From: Candidatus Desantisbacteria bacterium CG1_02_49_89
Lineage (GTDB): Bacteria; Desantisbacteria; UBA1551
Length of the DNA: 8,741 bases
Assembly (NCBI GenBank): GCA_001871075.1
Contig: MNUP01000062.1
Span: 1 to 8,741 of the forward strand
Direction: 5' to 3'
Shown: piece after piece, positions 1,889 to 8,741 of the stretch
Position numbering within the stretch: the first letter of the stretch is position 1
Layout of the letters: each line of letters begins with the position of its first letter
Translations under genes and position numbers: made by a program
Notes under the pieces: generated by a model
Told to the model about the DNA's origin: nothing
Seen by the model: only the letters and a program-made list of their open reading frames with translations
Database searches by the model: none

Positions 1889-1916
1889 TTGACATATGGT
1901 TGTTTTATGGTATAAT
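1889..1916 (+). promoter_or_regulatory. Extended -10 sigma70-type promoter for the MarR-type gene
   Basis: TTGACA (1889-1894) and TATAAT (1911-1916) are both perfect, spaced 16 bp, with TG at 1908-1909 giving an extended -10. Transcription should start near 1923, downstream of the ATG-like codons at 1849-1900, which sets the translation start at 1963. Confidence 0.85.
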
Positions 1917-1962: not shown

Positions 1963-2421
1963 ATGAACGATGATATAGAAGAACTGGTTAACAGGGTGGA
2001 AGCGGTTGACATGGAAATGAACGAGAGAAAGCTGCTTTCCCATTACAAAATACCTGAGGAGGTTGTTGAAACAGACCTCTCTATGAAGCAGTTGATGATC
2101 CTTCTTTCGCTTTCCATAAGCGACAATTCCACCATGGGTGAGCTGAGCGAGAAACTCGCCATGAATTTGTCGACGCTGACAAGGGCGGTTGACAGGCTTG
2201 TGGAGGAAACGTTTGCCATAAGGCAGAACGACCCTGGTGACCGCAGGATCGTGCGGGTGAGCCTTTCTTCAAAAGCCAAAACCGTGATGGACAAGATAAA
2301 AAAGCAGAGAAGGGAACTCGTTGCTTCTTTTATGAAAGGGCTCTCGCCCGAAGACAGGATAAAGTTCGTCAGTATGTTTGAAAACCTTATAAGATTGCTG
2401 TCCGGCTCCAAGAACAAATAA
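1963..2421 (+). CDS. MarR-family transcriptional regulator
   Basis: This 152-residue winged-helix protein has the usual MarR length. Residues about 40-105 hold the DNA-binding core: STMGELSEKLAMNLSTLTRA (56-75, helix-turn-helix), then a recognition/linker stretch, and the wing with DPGDRR (90-95) followed by a VSLSSKA strand-helix. The long N- and C-terminal helices (about 1-30 and 105-148) would form the dimer interface. MarR proteins bind palindromes as dimers and release DNA on binding small, often hydrophobic or phenolic ligands. I start at ATG 1963 (AGAGG at 1953-1957) rather than the longer frame from 1849, because the promoter TATAAT lies at 1911-1916 and the extra residues do not resemble the family. 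The RND transporter gene starts 105 nt downstream and is the likely target. The ligand is unknown. Confidence 0.9.
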   Translation: MNDDIEELVNRVEAVDMEMNERKLLSHYKIPEEVVETDLSMKQLMILLSLSISDNSTMGELSEKLAMNLSTLTRAVDRLVEETFAIRQNDPGDRRIVRVSLSSKAKTVMDKIKKQRRELVASFMKGLSPEDRIKFVSMFENLIRLLSGSKNK

Positions 2422-2526: not shown

Positions 2527-4788
2527 ATGCTTAAGAAACTCGCGAAGGCAGTGCTGAAATACCCCGTGGTGTTCCTGGTCATAATAATAGCAATAACCGT
2601 ATTTTTTCTGCAGTTCTTCCCCCGCCTGCGCATCAATTCGGACATCACCACGATGCTTCCGAGTAATTCAAAAGCCGTGGAGACAGAAAAAGAGATCGGT
2701 GAACGGTTCGGCGGCGCCAACTTCGTGATCGCGATGGTGGAAAGCGATGACATTTTTAACTCCAGGACCCTGCGCAAGATAGATGCCGTTTCCGCGGAAT
2801 TCAAAGACCTTGCGGACGTTTCCGAGATCCTGGGCATAACCAGGATGGACGAGATAAAAGGCACGGAAATGGGCCTTGAGGTTAAACCCATAAGGGAAAA
2901 ACTGCCGCAGACAAAAGCTGAAATAGAATCTTTCCGAAGGTACCTGCTCGGGGACAAAAGGTACAGGGGCATATTCGTTTCGCCTGACAGCAAATACACG
3001 GTAGTGATAACCAGGCTGTCGAGCGCCGCGAATGAATCCGAGGTCGCTGAGTCCCTGGAAAAGATAATCGCGAAATACCAGGGACCGGAAAAAATATACC
3101 TTTTAGGCCCGCCTTTTATCACGAGGACCTTGCAGGGTTACCTTATCAAGGACCTTAGGATACTCCTGCCCGTAGCGGCAGGTCTAATCGTGCTGGTGCT
3201 ATACTTCAGTTTCGGAACTCTCCCGGGCGTGCTGCTGCCTCTCCTCACAGTAGGGCTAAGCACCATATGGACAATGGGGCTTATAGGATGGCTCAACGAA
3301 CCACTTACATTGATAACCACGATCCTTCCTGTGATACTTTTCAGCGTTGGCACCGCTTACGCCCTGCACATCATAGCAAGGTATGACGAGGAGATAATAA
3401 ACGGACTTGAGAAAAAAGAAGCTCTTGAAAAAGCGATCTCAAGCACAGGAGTGCCCGTGTTCCTCGCCGCGATAACCACCGTATTCGGTTTTGTTTCAAA
3501 CCTGTTCACAAGCCTGCGCCCGATAAAGGTATTCGGGCTTGCTTCAGCGTTCGGAGTGGTGATCTCATTCCTGCTCGCGCTCATTTTCGTGCCCGTTATC
3601 CTGCTATGGTTCCCAAAACCCAGGATCAGGGAAAAAACCGGGAAGACCGAAGAAAGCAGGATAATGGCGGGATTCCTGAAAGCGCTTTCCGGAATAGTTG
3701 CCAGGCGCAAAACCGCCATCGTAATAGTAATGATGTTACTAATGGCATTCATGGCAAGCGCTATACCGCGCATTACGACCGAGAGTAATTTCGTTCAGTA
3801 TTTCAAGAAAGGGAGCGGCATAAGGACCGCGCACGATATTATGGACGAGCGTTTCGGCGGCACGTTCGGTTTCGACATTGTGATAAAAGGGGACATCCTT
3901 GACCCGGCTGTGATGGGTCAGATAGAAAAGTTCGGGCAGGCGCTGGGAGGCATAGAGAACGTGAACTACCCCCAGTCCATAGCCGACGTCCTGAAGGACG
4001 CCAATAAGGCGCTCAACGAAGGTGACCCGAAATACGAGGTACTGCCGCAGACAAGGGAAGCCGCTGCCCAGATAATGCTTCTGATGTCAATGTCCAGCTC
4101 TTCATTCCTGAACAATCTGATAACCGCGGATTACAGGGAAGCCCATATAACCGCAAGGGTTTCCAGCGTGCGCACCAAACTTCTTAAAAAAGCGATAAAG
4201 CAGGTCCAGGAAGCAGCGGCAAAGTGTTTCGAGCCCGGGACAGAGGTTGTAGTGAGCGGCACGCCCCTGATAATAGACGAGGTCCAGAAGCTCCTTATCT
4301 CCAACCAGTTCTCAAGCCTGATAGCCGCTTTTATAAGCGTTATCCTCATCATCACACTAATATACCGCACACCCACAAGCGGCGCATTCGCCAGCATGCC
4401 GATATTCCTGACGGTTATAATGATACTTGGCATAATGGGGTGGCTGGGTATTCCGCTTGACATGGCTAACACGATGTGCGGCAGCATAGCGGTAGGCATA
4501 GGCATTGATTATTCCTGCCATTTCTTCGCCAGATACAAGGAGGAACGCAAGAAAGGCGCCACCCGCAGCCAGGGAGTCGAATCCGCGATAAGGTCAGTGG
4601 GCGCGCCTATCTTCTACAACGCGATAGCGGTCGGCCTGGGATTCCTGGTCCTGATGTTCTCGTCATTTGACATGCTGGGCATGTTCGGCAAGCTCATAGC
4701 CATCGCTATGCTCTTCTCTTCCCTTGGAGCGTTTACCGTGCTGCCGGTCCTGATACTCATAAAGGGAAAGGTGAAGGGGGAGATCTAA
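2527..4788 (+). CDS. MMPL/RND-superfamily transporter (COG1033-like)
   Basis: This 753-residue inner-membrane protein has the internal duplication of RND transporters. There is a first membrane segment at 13-31, a periplasmic loop (about 32-210), five more segments (about 211-361), a cytoplasmic link, a segment at 396-413, a second periplasmic loop (about 414-594) and five final segments (about 595-746), twelve in all. Each periplasmic half starts with a matching ERFGG motif (59-63 and 441-445). In the second half GIGIDYSCHFFARYKEE (657-673) carries D661, the expected proton-relay Asp. The matching site of the first half (SVGTAYALHIIARYDEE, 273-289) has A277 instead. MMPL-type relatives (HpnN, MmpL) move lipids or other hydrophobic molecules by proton motive force. 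I choose ATG 2527 because AGGA (2517-2520) sits 6 nt before it; the in-frame TTG at 2512 would overlap that site. The substrate is unknown; lipid is an inference. Confidence 0.9.
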   Translation: MLKKLAKAVLKYPVVFLVIIIAITVFFLQFFPRLRINSDITTMLPSNSKAVETEKEIGERFGGANFVIAMVESDDIFNSRTLRKIDAVSAEFKDLADVSEILGITRMDEIKGTEMGLEVKPIREKLPQTKAEIESFRRYLLGDKRYRGIFVSPDSKYTVVITRLSSAANESEVAESLEKIIAKYQGPEKIYLLGPPFITRTLQGYLIKDLRILLPVAAGLIVLVLYFSFGTLPGVLLPLLTVGLSTIWTMGLIGWLNEPLTLITTILPVILFSVGTAYALHIIARYDEEIINGLEKKEALEKAISSTGVPVFLAAITTVFGFVSNLFTSLRPIKVFGLASAFGVVISFLLALIFVPVILLWFPKPRIREKTGKTEESRIMAGFLKALSGIVARRKTAIVIVMMLLMAFMASAIPRITTESNFVQYFKKGSGIRTAHDIMDERFGGTFGFDIVIKGDILDPAVMGQIEKFGQALGGIENVNYPQSIADVLKDANKALNEGDPKYEVLPQTREAAAQIMLLMSMSSSSFLNNLITADYREAHITARVSSVRTKLLKKAIKQVQEAAAKCFEPGTEVVVSGTPLIIDEVQKLLISNQFSSLIAAFISVILIITLIYRTPTSGAFASMPIFLTVIMILGIMGWLGIPLDMANTMCGSIAVGIGIDYSCHFFARYKEERKKGATRSQGVESAIRSVGAPIFYNAIAVGLGFLVLMFSSFDMLGMFGKLIAIAMLFSSLGAFTVLPVLILIKGKVKGEI

Positions 4789-4800
4789 CTCCTTAAAACA

Positions 4801-4842
4801 TTGCAAAAGTTAAATTGCAAATTGCAAAATGTAAAAGTTAAA
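4801..4842 (+). repeat. Degenerate TTGCAAA / GTAAAAGTTAAA repeat
   Basis: TTGCAAA occurs at 4801, 4815 and 4822. The words AAAAGTTAAA recur near 4805 and 4833. It is a low-complexity direct repeat just after the RND stop codon. Confidence 0.6.
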
Positions 4843-4861
4843 ACTTTCCACGAAAGCACTC

Positions 4862-4891
4862 CGCCCGTCTTTCAGCGGGCGAGACTTCGCC
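4862..4891. repeat. GC-rich double-hairpin element, copy 1
   Basis: CGCCCG (4862-4867) pairs with CGGGCG (4876-4881). The same 3' arm can instead pair onward: GGCGA (4878-4882) with TCGCC (4887-4891). The element stands out from its AT-rich surroundings and matches copy 2 at 5051-5083. Confidence 0.65.
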
Positions 4892-4940
4892 AACCTAAAA
4901 GGATGGGCGAGGAAACCACGAAAACACGAAAAAATTCAGC

Positions 4941-4960
4941 CACGGATTTCCACGGATTTT
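4941..4960 (+). repeat. 10-bp repeat, two units
   Basis: CACGGATTTC then CACGGATTTT, the same CACNGATTT family as 1775-1804 and 1852-1871, joined directly to the 9-bp repeat that follows. Confidence 0.7.
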
Positions 4961-5005
4961 AACTCTGTAAACTGTGTAAACTATATAAACTCTGTAAACT
5001 TATTT
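4961..5005 (+). repeat. 9-bp tandem repeat, five units
   Basis: Units AACTCTGTA, AACTGTGTA, AACTATATA, AACTCTGTA and a decayed AACTTATTT lie head to tail without gaps. Confidence 0.75.
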
Positions 5006-5050
5006 ACTCTGACACCTTGGCACTGTTTAAAATGTGGACTGTCGACCGCC

Positions 5051-5083
5051 CGCCCTGCGCAAAGGCAGGGCGAGGTCTCGCCC
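5051..5083. repeat. GC-rich double-hairpin element, copy 2
   Basis: CGCCCTGC (5051-5058) pairs perfectly with GCAGGGCG (5065-5072). Alternatively GGGCGAG (5068-5074) pairs with CTCGCCC (5077-5083). The order of arms is the same as in copy 1, with different loop bases, so paired arms appear conserved while loops vary. Confidence 0.7.
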
Positions 5084-5133
5084 GATCTTAATCGTGGCGG
5101 ATGGACTGTGGACTATATTAAATTGGAGGGAAC

Positions 5134-5871
5134 ATGAAAAAAATATATATTGCTATTCTTCTGGCAGGATTATTGATGGCAGGCACAGCGGGTTTTTCAA
5201 GCGCGATGACCGCGGACGAGGTGCTGGATAAAATGGACCAGACCATGGAGCACAGTAACCAGGTAGCGGTGCTGTCCATGACCCTGACTGACAAAAAAGG
5301 AATAGTCCAGAACAGAGAGATAAAGATGTTCCAAAAAGAAGGCGGGAAAAGGCTGATAAAGTTCCTTAAGCCCGCTGACGTTAAAGGCACGGGATTCCTG
5401 TCGCTTCCGGGGGATGAAATGTATATATATATGCCTGCGCTGGGCAAGGTCAGGCGCATAGCGTCCCACGTGAAGAACCAGTCGTTCATGGGCACGGATT
5501 TTTCCTACGATGATATGGGCGGTGAGCAATACAGCGGGAGCAGTAAGACGACATCCTTTACCGAAGAAGGCGGGAAGTACCTGATAGAGGTTACCGCGGC
5601 AAAAAAAGACGCAACCTATTCAAGGCTTAAGTTAATTATAGACAAAAACACCTTTATCGCGGATAAGATAGAATTTTTTGACAAGGCAGGAAGGCCGTTC
5701 AAGACAATGACGAACTCAAACGTGGAAAAGATAGGTGACTCCTGGGTATCTAAAGAGATCAAGATGGTAAACGTCCAGGAAGGCCACACCACAGTGCTTA
5801 AAATGACCGATATAAGCTTTGACTCCGAACTGAGCGACGATATTTTCACCCAGCGCAACCTGCAGAAATAA
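5134..5871 (+). CDS. LolA-like periplasmic protein (outer membrane lipoprotein-sorting protein family)
   Basis: This 245-residue protein begins with a Sec signal peptide (MKK, hydrophobic 5-20, probable cleavage after SSA at 24). The mature part matches the LolA-like family often encoded next to MMPL/RND transporters (Pfam PF17131 from memory). Supporting stretches are TADEVLDKMDQTM (26-38), FLKPADVKGTGFLSLP (77-92), YIYMPALGKVRRIA (97-110), SFMGTDFSYDDM (117-128) and a C-terminal ISFDSELSDDIFT (227-239). LolA folds are half-barrels with a hydrophobic cavity that shields acyl chains in the periplasm. This one would be the carrier or partner of the RND pump encoded upstream (inference). A clear GGAGGG (5125-5130) sits 3 nt before the ATG. 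It is not the housekeeping LolA: the paired motifs and genomic neighbour differ. Confidence 0.88.
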   Translation: MKKIYIAILLAGLLMAGTAGFSSAMTADEVLDKMDQTMEHSNQVAVLSMTLTDKKGIVQNREIKMFQKEGGKRLIKFLKPADVKGTGFLSLPGDEMYIYMPALGKVRRIASHVKNQSFMGTDFSYDDMGGEQYSGSSKTTSFTEEGGKYLIEVTAAKKDATYSRLKLIIDKNTFIADKIEFFDKAGRPFKTMTNSNVEKIGDSWVSKEIKMVNVQEGHTTVLKMTDISFDSELSDDIFTQRNLQK

Positions 5872-5957
5872 CTAAGAACAGTCATTTGTCACGAGTTTAA
5901 AACCAAAAAGTATTTATCAGTGCTGCAGGATCATTAAAAGGAAATACGGAGGGAGAA

Positions 5958-7190
5958 ATGCCTAAACTCGATCCTGCCGGATGGTTCGCTAAAATCGGAT
6001 TTATAACATGCCTCCTTATAACATGTATTATAGCTTCCTTCATTTTCGACAGGAAAGAATACTCGGTGACCGATGTGTATGAAGTCGGGCCGGGTAAACC
6101 TTATTTTAATATACAGTCAGCGGTCAATGCTTTAATTGAGACACAATGGGGTATGCCCTTTGATACCGAGAAGAAGATCAAGATATATGCCAAACAGGGC
6201 GAGGGATATGACGCCTGTTATAATGAAGCAATAACCATATGGGGATTAAAGCCCACGCAAGACCACAGGCTTATTATAGAGGGCGATGGAAACCTGGCAA
6301 TGATCGCCTCTTCGCAGGATATAAAGTATATTAAAATGCTCCCTGTTAAAGTCTATCCCGGCGCGGCATTCACAGTTAAAAGCCCGTTCGTTACCATAAG
6401 GAAACTGCGGATAGGGGGCAATGGGTACCCCGTGCATTGCATTGAGGATAAAGGCATATATGTCAGCGAGAAAGGATTTGTGATAGAGGACTGCACCTGG
6501 TATAAGACACATCACTCGCAGGTCTATCTTGCCAGGGGGGCTAACAGCGCGGTAATAAACAGGAACACTTTTTGCCTTTCAGGCACATCCGCCGTTGAAA
6601 TCGAACCAGGTGTCAACAACTGCCTGATATGCAATAATACAATGGTCGGGATGCAGCACGGAATAATCTGCAGGGGGAAAAACCATCGCATATACAATAA
6701 TACCATCGTAAAGAGCAGCAAATATGTGGCCGGTTCATGCATATATTTTCCCGAAACCACCTGCGGCAATATAGATATAAAAAATAATATATTTGTCGCG
6801 GATTATCCGAGTTCCTGTTTCAGTTCAAACGGGCTGCCCGCAGGCATAAGTTCCGACAATAACCTTTTCTTTTCCTTTTTAACATCATTTATATACGATG
6901 ACTGCACCAAGGACCCAAAAGACCGCGTGAAATTGACCGGATGGAAGAAGATCTCGGGTCAGGACACAAATTCGCTTTACGGCGATCCGATATTCTTTTT
7001 TTTCAACGGTTATAAGTGGATACCCCCGTACGGCGACTCTCCGCCATTTTATATTAATACTGACCTGCGCCTGCGCGAAGGTTCGGCGGCAATAGGCAGG
7101 GGAAAAGTGCTATCCGGCATATTTGATACGGATATTCTCGGTAAAAAAAGGAAAAACCTTTGGGACATAGGGGCTTATGCGCGGCAATAA
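5958..7190 (+). CDS. Membrane-anchored right-handed parallel beta-helix protein
   Basis: The product has 410 residues. Residues about 12-30 form one hydrophobic segment without a good cleavage site, so a signal anchor with the rest in the periplasm is likely. Segment YEVGPGKPYFNIQSAVNALI (41-60) is the usual entry to pectate-lyase-like beta-helices. The middle (about 130-310) repeats short strands separated by Asn-rich turns (INRNTF, ICNNTMVG, IYNNTIV, IKNNIFV, SDNNLFF), the asparagine ladder of PbH1 repeats. The end (GSAAIGRG ... DIGAYARQ) is the common closing motif of these proteins. The fold often binds or cleaves polysaccharides, but I cannot name catalytic residues. GGAGGGAG (5948-5955) precedes the ATG. 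It looks more AT-rich than its neighbours and separates the two LolA-like genes, so a later insertion is possible. Confidence 0.82.
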   Translation: MPKLDPAGWFAKIGFITCLLITCIIASFIFDRKEYSVTDVYEVGPGKPYFNIQSAVNALIETQWGMPFDTEKKIKIYAKQGEGYDACYNEAITIWGLKPTQDHRLIIEGDGNLAMIASSQDIKYIKMLPVKVYPGAAFTVKSPFVTIRKLRIGGNGYPVHCIEDKGIYVSEKGFVIEDCTWYKTHHSQVYLARGANSAVINRNTFCLSGTSAVEIEPGVNNCLICNNTMVGMQHGIICRGKNHRIYNNTIVKSSKYVAGSCIYFPETTCGNIDIKNNIFVADYPSSCFSSNGLPAGISSDNNLFFSFLTSFIYDDCTKDPKDRVKLTGWKKISGQDTNSLYGDPIFFFFNGYKWIPPYGDSPPFYINTDLRLREGSAAIGRGKVLSGIFDTDILGKKRKNLWDIGAYARQ

Positions 7191-7209
7191 CGATAATAAA
7201 AGTTTTTAG

Positions 7210-7236
7210 CAGGGACCTGGCAGGAACCTAAACTAC
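7210..7236 (+). repeat. Shared leader motif, copy 1
   Basis: CAGGGACCTGGCAGGAACC followed by TAAACTAC aligns with 7982-8010. It lies 109 nt before the next start codon, against 118 nt for copy 2. Confidence 0.5.
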
Positions 7237-7271
7237 CCATACTTTTTAGCTTTTTAAGTTCTCTTAAGCCT

Positions 7272-7298
7272 GCCCGCCAATCTTGGTGGAGGGTTCCC
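7272..7298. repeat. Possible degenerate third copy of the GC-rich hairpin element
   Basis: GCCCGCC-AATCTT-GGTGG followed by AGGGTTCCC resembles the arm order of copies at 4862 and 5051 but pairs imperfectly. GGG-TT-CCC forms the short second hairpin. Confidence 0.35.
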
Positions 7299-7318
7299 TG
7301 TAAAAAAGGCATTGAATC

Positions 7319-7962
7319 ATGAAAATTACCCTGATTGTTTTTGCTGTATTGGGGTGGTGCGCGGCTGCGCTTGGGCAGGACGCCGGAACCATCATCGCCG
7401 GAGCCAGGCAGAAATACGAAAAGGTGAGCAGTTATTGCTGTTTGATGGAAATACGCGAGGTCCGGGGCCCAAAAACTGAAGACAGGCTGATGAAGTATTA
7501 TTTCAAAAAGCCCTGTACCATCAGGATAGAGTCCTTGAGGGAAAAGACGCCGGAGGCGTGGCGCTTTACAGGGACCGTTTCGTATGGGGGAGGCAGAGCG
7601 GCATACTAAGCGCTTTCAGGATGAAGTTCAAATACACCGACAGGATGGTCGCTTCCGCCAGGGGCGCGACTATGGACCAGTCAGGCTGGGGTTATATGCT
7701 TGGCCAGATCGAAGGCTTGTCTAAGAAAGGAAGCGGGTTATCCGTATCGGAAGTTACCGGAAAATATTCCTGCTGGGTACTCAGCGATCTGCGGCAGGAA
7801 ACAGGTTCTTCAGGCGAGAAATTCTACATAGACAAGGAAACCGGCGTGGTATCAAGGCACGAAACCTTTGAGGACGGGATCCTTGTAAGCAGGGGCATAT
7901 ACAGGGAGTTTATTATAAACGGCAGTTTTGACCCAGCGCTTTTTGACGAAAAAAGATTTTAA
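7319..7962 (+). pseudogene. Second LolA-like periplasmic protein, interrupted by a 1-nt frameshift
   Basis: Two overlapping frames make one protein. The first (7319-7609) has a signal peptide (hydrophobic 4-18, cleavage near ALG-Q) and runs in family register to IRIE (residue 71, codon 7529-7531), then turns to unrelated sequence ending at 7609. The second frame continues from 7531 as VLEGKDAGGVALYRDRFVWG and runs to the stop at 7960-7962. Joining them with one restored base (for example GAGGTC in place of GAGTC at 7529-7533) gives 214 residues that read as a LolA/DUF1571-like lipoprotein-carrier fold: KYEKVSSYCCLMEIRE, YYFKKPCTIRIE-VLEGKD, FYIDKETGVVSRHE, FDPALFDEKRF. As it stands the gene is broken, unless this is a sequencing error or ribosomal frameshifting rescues it. 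The RBS is weak (AAAAGG 7304-7309). It probably serves the same envelope pathway as its neighbours. Confidence 0.75.
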
Positions 7963-7981
7963 ACAGCAAAATGATTATTTA

Positions 7982-8010
7982 CAGGGATCTTCGAGCGGGA
8001 TTTAAACTAC
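7982..8010 (+). repeat. Shared leader motif, copy 2
   Basis: CAGGGATCT ... GCGGGATTTAAACTAC matches the motif at 7210-7236, at nearly the same distance from the following start codon. It leads directly into the structured region 8007-8067. Confidence 0.5.
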
Positions 8011-8067
8011 TTCTTTTGGAGTAGACCCTTTAGGGTCGTATAATAACGGGCCTAAATGCCCTACTCC
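8007..8067 (+). promoter_or_regulatory. Switch-like structured leader of the beta-barrel gene
   Basis: GGAGTAG (8018-8024) can pair with CTACTTC just upstream (8007-8013, tetraloop TTTT, one G-U) or perfectly with CTACTCC downstream (8061-8067). The second pairing closes a three-way junction holding GACCC-TTTA-GGGTC (8024-8037) and GGGC-CTAAAT-GCCC (8048-8061), with the bases shared at 8024 and 8061 going to one stem or the other. It matches no riboswitch class I know. Confidence 0.5.
8016..8044 (+). promoter_or_regulatory. Possible promoter inside the barrel-gene leader
   Basis: TATAAT (8039-8044) is a perfect -10, with a poor -35 TTGGAG (8016-8021) 17 bp upstream. If used, transcription would start near 8051 and the leader fold would not be made, so this competes with the structured-leader reading. 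Confidence 0.35.
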
Positions 8068-8099
8068 TTGTAGCATATTTTATAGAAAGGGAGAAAAAG

Positions 8100-8741
8100 A
8101 TGAAAAAAATAATTGCAGTTGTGGTTTTGGGCCTGCTTGCGGCGGGAAGCGCGCACGCCCTGGATATAAACGGGTTCCTGAAAACGGACTGGCGGGTCAA
8201 GGCTGACAGCACTGCCGCGCTCACCTGGAACGAAAACGTGGTTAACCTGAAACTGAAATCCGCGGTCGCTTCAGGAGCAAGCGGGTTCGCGGAACTGGAA
8301 CTGAAAAACACCGGGTTCCCAACAGCAGGTAACCTGAACGATCTGAGCCTTTACGATAAATCTAAGGCAGCGCCCTGGACGCTTGAGCTTAAGGAAGGAT
8401 ACGTGGATATCTCGAACCTTTTTGTCGAAGGCTTTGACCTGCGCGCGGGAAAACAGCGCATCACCTGGGGCACAGCGGACAGGTTCAACCCCACGGATAA
8501 CCTGAATCCGCTTGACCTTTCTGACCTGACTGATTTCGGAAGGCGGGTCGCGAACACTTCGCTGAAAGCCACGTATTACATAGGTAATTTCTACGCGCAG
8601 GGTGTTTTCATCCCGGTGTTCACGCCTGGTGTCCTGCCCGCAAATTGGATGTCAATGTACCCGATGCCCTTGATGGCGGGTGTCACAATCAGAAATATGG
8701 ATTTAACAGTTACGATGCCTGAAGACAGACTCGAAAGCTCA
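8100..8741 (+). CDS. Outer-membrane beta-barrel protein, DUF1302-like (3' end beyond window)
   Basis: An open frame from ATG 8100 runs to the window edge (214 codons, no stop). AAAGGGAG (8086-8093) precedes it by 6 nt. Residues 1-20 are a clear Sec signal peptide (MKKIIAVVVLGLLAAGSAHA). The mature part alternates hydrophobic and polar residues as in transmembrane beta-strands. Segment ELKEGYVDI ... FDLRAGKQRITWGTADRFNP (about 96-131) followed by TDNLNPLDLSDLTDF (132-146) is the hallmark of DUF1302/alginate-export-like barrels, where a 'GKQxxxWG' strand precedes an 'NPxD' loop. Its place after the RND and LolA-like genes suggests the outer-membrane part of the same export or lipid-transfer route (inference). 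The C-terminal strands, including the terminal aromatic residue used for barrel assembly, are not visible. Confidence 0.82.
   Translation, partial: MKKIIAVVVLGLLAAGSAHALDINGFLKTDWRVKADSTAALTWNENVVNLKLKSAVASGASGFAELELKNTGFPTAGNLNDLSLYDKSKAAPWTLELKEGYVDISNLFVEGFDLRAGKQRITWGTADRFNPTDNLNPLDLSDLTDFGRRVANTSLKATYYIGNFYAQGVFIPVFTPGVLPANWMSMYPMPLMAGVTIRNMDLTVTMPEDRLESS

Follow-up and report, generated by a model that had tools for sequence, protein, structure and literature searches.

A pump, a LolA-fold carrier, and an outer-membrane barrel in one gene order: a candidate trans-envelope exporter from Candidatus Desantisbacteria

Background

Do neighbouring genes for an inner-membrane pump, a periplasmic carrier, and an outer-membrane barrel make up a path across the cell envelope, and which of the genes lying among them belong to it? 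The question is raised by an 8741-base contig of Candidatus Desantisbacteria bacterium CG1_02_49_89, which lives in groundwater and belongs to a phylum about which little is known; its 2.48-Mb genome is distributed across 150 contigs. The entire contig constitutes the window discussed here. On its + strand lie, in order, genes for a GAF/HD-GYP protein, a cold-shock protein, a MarR regulator, an MMPL pump of the resistance-nodulation-division (RND) type, a PF17131 LolA_like protein (carrier 1), a beta-helix protein, a second LolA-fold protein (carrier 2), and the start of a barrel. An initial interpretation made from the letters alone, here called the sequence-only reading, saw in the genes from pump to barrel what could be a complete path for a hydrophobic molecule. 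The core of that path, pump, carrier 1, and barrel, recurs in the same order elsewhere; its other proposed parts, the beta-helix protein, the MarR regulator, and an intact second carrier, are unsupported.

Conservation of the core gene order

The closest named genome is that of Candidatus Desantisbacteria bacterium CG1_02_38_46 (hereafter, the relative), and these are the only two genomes from the phylum in the comparison set. In the relative, at locus L042, the genes for the pump, both carriers (1 before 2), and the barrel form a tight four-gene array, with 1 bp between the two carrier genes. Thus, the five-gene order originally proposed is not kept in the nearest relative.

The core itself extends much farther. 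A survey of 58 genomes of other families yielded 58 strong PF17131 matches, spread over 29 distant genomes (59 places in the count made for barrels). An MMPL match lies within 3 kb of 24 of the 58; all 24 are on the same strand, and the PF17131 gene is downstream of the pump in 21. By a rough estimate that assumes a few MMPL matches per 2-3 Mb genome, fewer than one such pair would be expected by chance. A profile search for barrels found one within 3 kb of 32 of the 59 places, 30 of them downstream on the same strand, and both a pump and a barrel are near 21 of the 59, in 16 genomes. The core order pump-PF17131-barrel therefore occurs far above chance. The initial interpretation would have fallen had relatives shown no conserved neighbourhood; this order is common to many unrelated families. 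The same order also appears in a Prevotella nigrescens record annotated ABC-ABC-MMPL-'lipoprotein-sorting protein'-DUF1302 (ABC, ATP-binding cassette). Partial versions are carried on plasmids, MMPL-LolA in Pseudoalteromonas and LolA-MMPL-hypothetical in Thalassospira. The Pseudoalteromonas pair (L137) is on a 24-kb plasmid and adjoins gamma-mobile-trio recombinase genes.

The engine beside the carrier is not always an RND pump. When 20 PF17131 loci with no MMPL match were inspected, 8 were found to have two or three FtsX/MacB-type permeases, in most cases together with an ABC-type ATPase (Pfam-confirmed in L125), and most also have a barrel. The ABC-linked PF17131 proteins form one group in the tree, with modest support (80/80). 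Repeated swapping of engines was consequently rejected, and since these carriers group together, a single engine change suffices. The finding of two kinds of engine, RND pump and LolCDE/MacB-like ABC transporter, beside the same carrier-barrel pair fits the idea that the carrier accepts cargo extracted from the membrane. Known members of the MacB/LolCDE-type class of ABC transporters act outward, and the alternation of engines favours outward transport for the cassette.

As for the cargo, cassettes in two of the genomes (G002 and G007) have lipid-related neighbours, namely a patatin, a phasin, and a YegS-type lipid kinase, which hint at a lipid.

Several distant loci merit separate mention. 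PF17131 carriers, mostly with a barrel, adjoin MacB/LolCDE-type ABC transporters at L110, L118, and L121-L126, loci that come from many distant genomes. Cassettes at L113, L115, and L045 lie beside patatin phospholipases, a phasin, a YegS-type lipid kinase, and an ABC1/UbiB kinase. At L117 (5340-10146), a PF17131 gene and a barrel adjoin a short-chain dehydrogenase/reductase, a large ABC-type protein, and an MlaD protein, possibly a mixture with an MCE lipid system, and at L112 (4731-9587) a PF17131 gene is downstream of what reads from the sequence as an EmrB/EmrA/TolC-like set.

The three core components

The pump (2527..4788, + strand) is a 753-residue MMPL/HAE3 RND inner-membrane transporter that matches PF03176 at 204 bits against a cut-off of 20.5 (E 3.8e-60). 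Its best NCBIfam match, TIGR00921/HAE3, spans residues 11-744 and scores 323.6 bits, below the curated cut-off of 351.9; the pump is thus best described as HAE3-like, and HAE3 membership at the curated level is not claimed. Together, these matches bear out the assignment as an MMPL/COG1033 inner-membrane RND pump. Transmembrane segment 10 contains the motif GIGIDY (GxGxDY) at residues 657-662, and its Asp661, the residue expected for a proton relay, is an aspartate in 10 of the 10 alignment rows that cover the site.

Carrier 1 (5134..5871, + strand) is a periplasmic protein of 245 residues with a signal peptide, as read from the sequence. The PF17131-like assignment also held, at 189.8 bits against a cut-off of 30 (E 4.7e-56), and PF17131 is a far better fit than DUF1329 (PF07044), which reaches 21.1 bits and falls under its cut-off of 23.1. 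Three solved structures, 9TP6, 3BK5, and 4Z48, are related to it (profile E 1e-67 to 4e-21). The first of these (E 1e-67) is the crystal structure of LolA3 of Porphyromonas gingivalis, in which the authors describe a hydrophobic groove (PMC13103446). This groove contradicts, at the level of the family, the possibility that the LolA-like proteins have no hydrophobic cavity, which would also have counted against the sequence-only reading. By its profile matches, carrier 1 is a LolA-fold carrier, a designation that does not extend to lipoprotein carrier.

The third component, the barrel (8100..8741, + strand), is cut off by the contig end, leaving the N-terminal 214 residues; the relative's full protein has 432. 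The fragment is 59% identical to the product of L042:7177-8475. DUF1302-like character, claimed at the outset, is confirmed for this start of the barrel, with a PF06980 score of 25.5 bits against 23.2 (E 8.5e-6); the relative's full barrel scores 20.1, below the same cut-off. A model of the relative's barrel (predicted local distance difference test score, pLDDT, 82) matches OprD, MOMP, and AlgE with Z of 20-22 and root-mean-square deviations (rmsd) of 3.7-4.9 across about 300-340 residues. FadL, TolC, and Omp85 are not among the best structural matches listed for this model, which is no proof of their absence.

Additional genes of the locus

Carrier 2 (7319..7962, + strand) is a DUF1571-related, LolA-fold gene that is interrupted. 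It is split over two overlapping frames, 7319-7609 and 7558-7962, whose products match successive stretches of one and the same protein in the relative; a single base has been lost near 7531. The second LolA-like carrier first described is thus present as a gene and not intact. The relative's copy has a lesion of its own, a single TGA (L042:8915-8917) at a codon that reads Trp in the window, so that the gene is interrupted in the two Desantisbacteria genomes by distinct single changes no more than about 20 codons apart. Recoding of this TGA was rejected, as adjoining genes end in TGA and it is an ordinary stop; selenocysteine was set aside, as the window has Trp at that position and homologues have Lys or Arg.

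Other phyla have intact homologues of carrier 2, of which one lies divergently to an MMPL gene and two (L131 and L132) pass DUF1571 (PF07608) with 34.4 and 28.6 bits against 27. The relative's protein, read through the TGA, has no Pfam match and does not reach the PF07608 gathering score. Its predicted fold is of the LolA/RseB/LppX type (pLDDT 84.9); the best match of the model is to a Bacteroides LolA (Z 16.2, rmsd 2.8 across 167 residues), and it also matches LppX and LprG. Beyond the lesions, window and relative differ at 67% of third codon positions and at 35% of first and second positions (pS 0.81, pN 0.36, over 135 codons). Because constraint continues past the lesions, the breaks are either young or sequence errors.

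These lesions raise the possibility that the cassette is decaying in this genome, a former transport operon that is losing parts, with carrier 2 dead and with the beta-helix gene and repeats inserted. Besides the base lost from carrier 2 and the TGA in the relative's copy, insertions speak for it: the beta-helix gene, and dispersed intergenic repeats in three gaps, between pump and carrier 1 (4795..5114), between the beta-helix gene and carrier 2 (7244..7308), and between carrier 2 and the barrel (7968..8053). These repeats have about 55 further matches in the same genome at 77-100% identity. However, the pump, carrier 1, and the barrel all have open, conserved reading frames, in which third codon positions have changed far more often than first and second ones, and even carrier 2 is still constrained beyond its lesions. 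Decay is accordingly an improbable account of the locus.

The beta-helix gene (5958..7190, + strand) encodes a right-handed beta-helix protein of 410 residues that scores 27.9 bits with PF13229 against a cut-off of 25.9. It has an N-terminal hydrophobic segment, in line with its first description as anchored; its place in the system is unsupported. The gene is not in the relative's array, and a search of the relative's genome, made without a positive control, gave no match. For this reason a five-gene unit was rejected, and the gene is probably an insertion outside the core.

A similar judgement applies to the MarR regulator (1963..2421, + strand; 152 residues), which matches PF01047 at 45 bits against a cut-off of 24.6 (E 9.5e-12). 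A MarR gene does stand at the head of the run, as was claimed, and its membership in the system finds no support. No homologue was detected in the relative, in a search that carried no positive control, and regulators of other kinds adjoin the distant pumps (TetR at five, ArsR at a sixth); MarR was therefore rejected as a fixed part of the cassette. Upstream, a sigma-70-type promoter with the sequence TTGACA-16-TATAAT (1889..1916, + strand) is recognised by consensus match alone, at 12 of 12 positions. Just past it, a pair of imperfect palindromes with TTGCAA at their centres (1916-1927, 1932-1943) may, from their sequence and position, be the operator of the MarR protein. The GAF/HD-GYP and cold-shock genes precede the cassette at the left of the window, and a strong terminator (1731-1764) follows the cold-shock gene, ahead of the promoter. 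No convincing intrinsic terminators were found between the cassette genes on the + strand, and no RNA elements were found in the window.

Relation to characterised systems

A characterised parallel is AmeABCD of Castellaniella defragrans, which brings together an HAE3 pump, a LolA-superfamily protein of DUF1329, an outer-membrane protein of DUF1302, and a COG4447 protein. Deleting it makes the cells less tolerant of monoterpenes and increases net dye influx (PMC6394551). Aromatic regulons of Betaproteobacteria contain these four families as well (PMC6449761). Like AmeABCD, the window has an HAE3-like (COG1033) pump, a LolA-superfamily periplasmic protein, and a DUF1302-like outer-membrane protein in one cassette. 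AmeABCD differs in that its periplasmic protein is of DUF1329 (PF07044), whereas that of the window is of PF17131, in its gene order, and in the window's second LolA-fold gene and MarR gene. No gene for a COG4447 protein (AmeC) was recognised among the open reading frames of the window or L042, where both arrays are cut by contig ends and no COG4447 model was run. Nor was a HlyD-type adaptor or TolC-type factor recognised in either array; unlinked copies elsewhere in the genome were not searched for.

The Prevotella nigrescens operon has the window's order of pump, PF17131 carrier, and DUF1302 barrel, but begins with two ABC genes and has no second carrier that could be seen. The layout proposed to bypass the usual RND/adaptor/TolC arrangement is not new, as AmeABCD (PMC6394551) and this operon already have it. 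In P. gingivalis and Prevotella intermedia, operons of TetR, ABC, MMPL, and lipoprotein-sorting genes are strongly up under iron limitation (PMC10434189); unlike the window, they have a TetR regulator at the front.

More distant parallels concern the principle. MmpL7 and LppX are named in the export of phthiocerol dimycocerosate (PDIM) (PMC11539658), and mycobacterial MmpL7-LppX/LprG resembles the window in pairing an MMPL pump with a LolA-fold lipid carrier. No sequence similarity between LppX or LprG and the carriers of the window was found. The mycobacterial proteins are lipoproteins, and their system has no barrel of the window's type. Borrelia BBJ23-29, of the LolCDE-LolA type, likewise combines an inner-membrane extractor, a LolA-type carrier, and an outer-membrane barrel, but with an ABC engine and an Omp85 barrel in place of the RND pump and OprD-like barrel of the window (PMC13078400).

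A model for the cassette and its alternatives

We hold, with somewhat better than even confidence, that the cassette encodes an exporter in three parts, which together span the envelope and serve a lipid or another small hydrophobic molecule. In this model, the MMPL/HAE3 pump would use the proton gradient to extract cargo from the inner membrane; the PF17131 protein would take it into its groove and ferry it across the periplasm; and the OprD/AlgE-like barrel would receive it and release it either into the outer membrane or through it. Carrier 2 may formerly have added a further step, its gene now being interrupted in the sequenced copies, and the MarR protein probably keeps the operon repressed until it is released by a ligand, which may be the cargo. 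We infer the contacts between the parts, the cargo, the direction, and the regulation.

Certain observations weigh against this model. Transmembrane segment 4 of the pump, like that of most aligned relatives, does not have the usual MMPL aspartate; many PF17131-barrel pairs have no recognised engine alongside; the cassette contains no metabolic genes; and carrier 2 is broken in both Desantisbacteria genomes. In addition, the dispersed repeats occupy the gaps, so that co-transcription of all genes of the window is only putative.

Another explanation is that the PF17131 protein is a chaperone for lipoproteins or outer-membrane proteins that delivers a protein cargo, either a lipoprotein or the barrel itself, under RND power. 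Lipoprotein sorting is what the family name and its Gene Ontology terms indicate, the fold is that of LolA, the ABC-linked relatives resemble LolCDE, and Borrelia BBJ23-29 has been proposed to act in this way (PMC13078400). Yet no lipoprotein gene is seen in the cassette, and the known substrates of MMPL pumps are lipids and siderophores rather than proteins. Furthermore, LolA3 of P. gingivalis, itself related through PF17131, has neither the conserved Arg of the LolA beta2-beta3 loop nor the Leu of LolB, and it binds LolB only very weakly (PMC13103446). A chaperone role is thus unlikely. Uptake of a hydrophobic compound through the barrel, with the carrier passing it to the RND protein, is quite unlikely, for although the barrel resembles substrate-specific OprD-type uptake channels and Thalassolituus TOL_3187, an MMPL protein fused to a LolA-like domain, is induced together with an adjoining porin on long-chain alkane and proposed to transport alkanes (PMC6304351), the exporter AlgE scores as well as OprD does, characterised RND pumps export, and loss of AmeABCD increases dye influx (PMC6394551).

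Conclusions

The three-part exporter model may have a wider form, a cross-phylum and largely uncharacterised exporter class in which a soluble LolA-type shuttle and an OprD/AlgE-like barrel replace adaptor and TolC, an RND pump serves as the engine in some members and a MacB/LolCDE-type ABC transporter in others, and the main task is the export of endogenous outer-membrane lipids. This generalisation is tentative, and we judge it rather more apt to fail than to hold. The layout of the cassette is already known and little studied; the window adds a member from a remote phylum, with a broken second carrier as a local variation.

In most phyla, the route by which lipids and hydrophobic products traverse the periplasm is an open question. 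A pump, a carrier, and a channel kept together across distant bacteria provide a defined set of partners for testing. Although the window places the cassette in a phylum without cultures, Bacteroidota and Pseudomonadota that can be grown also carry such cassettes, and the question can be tested in them.

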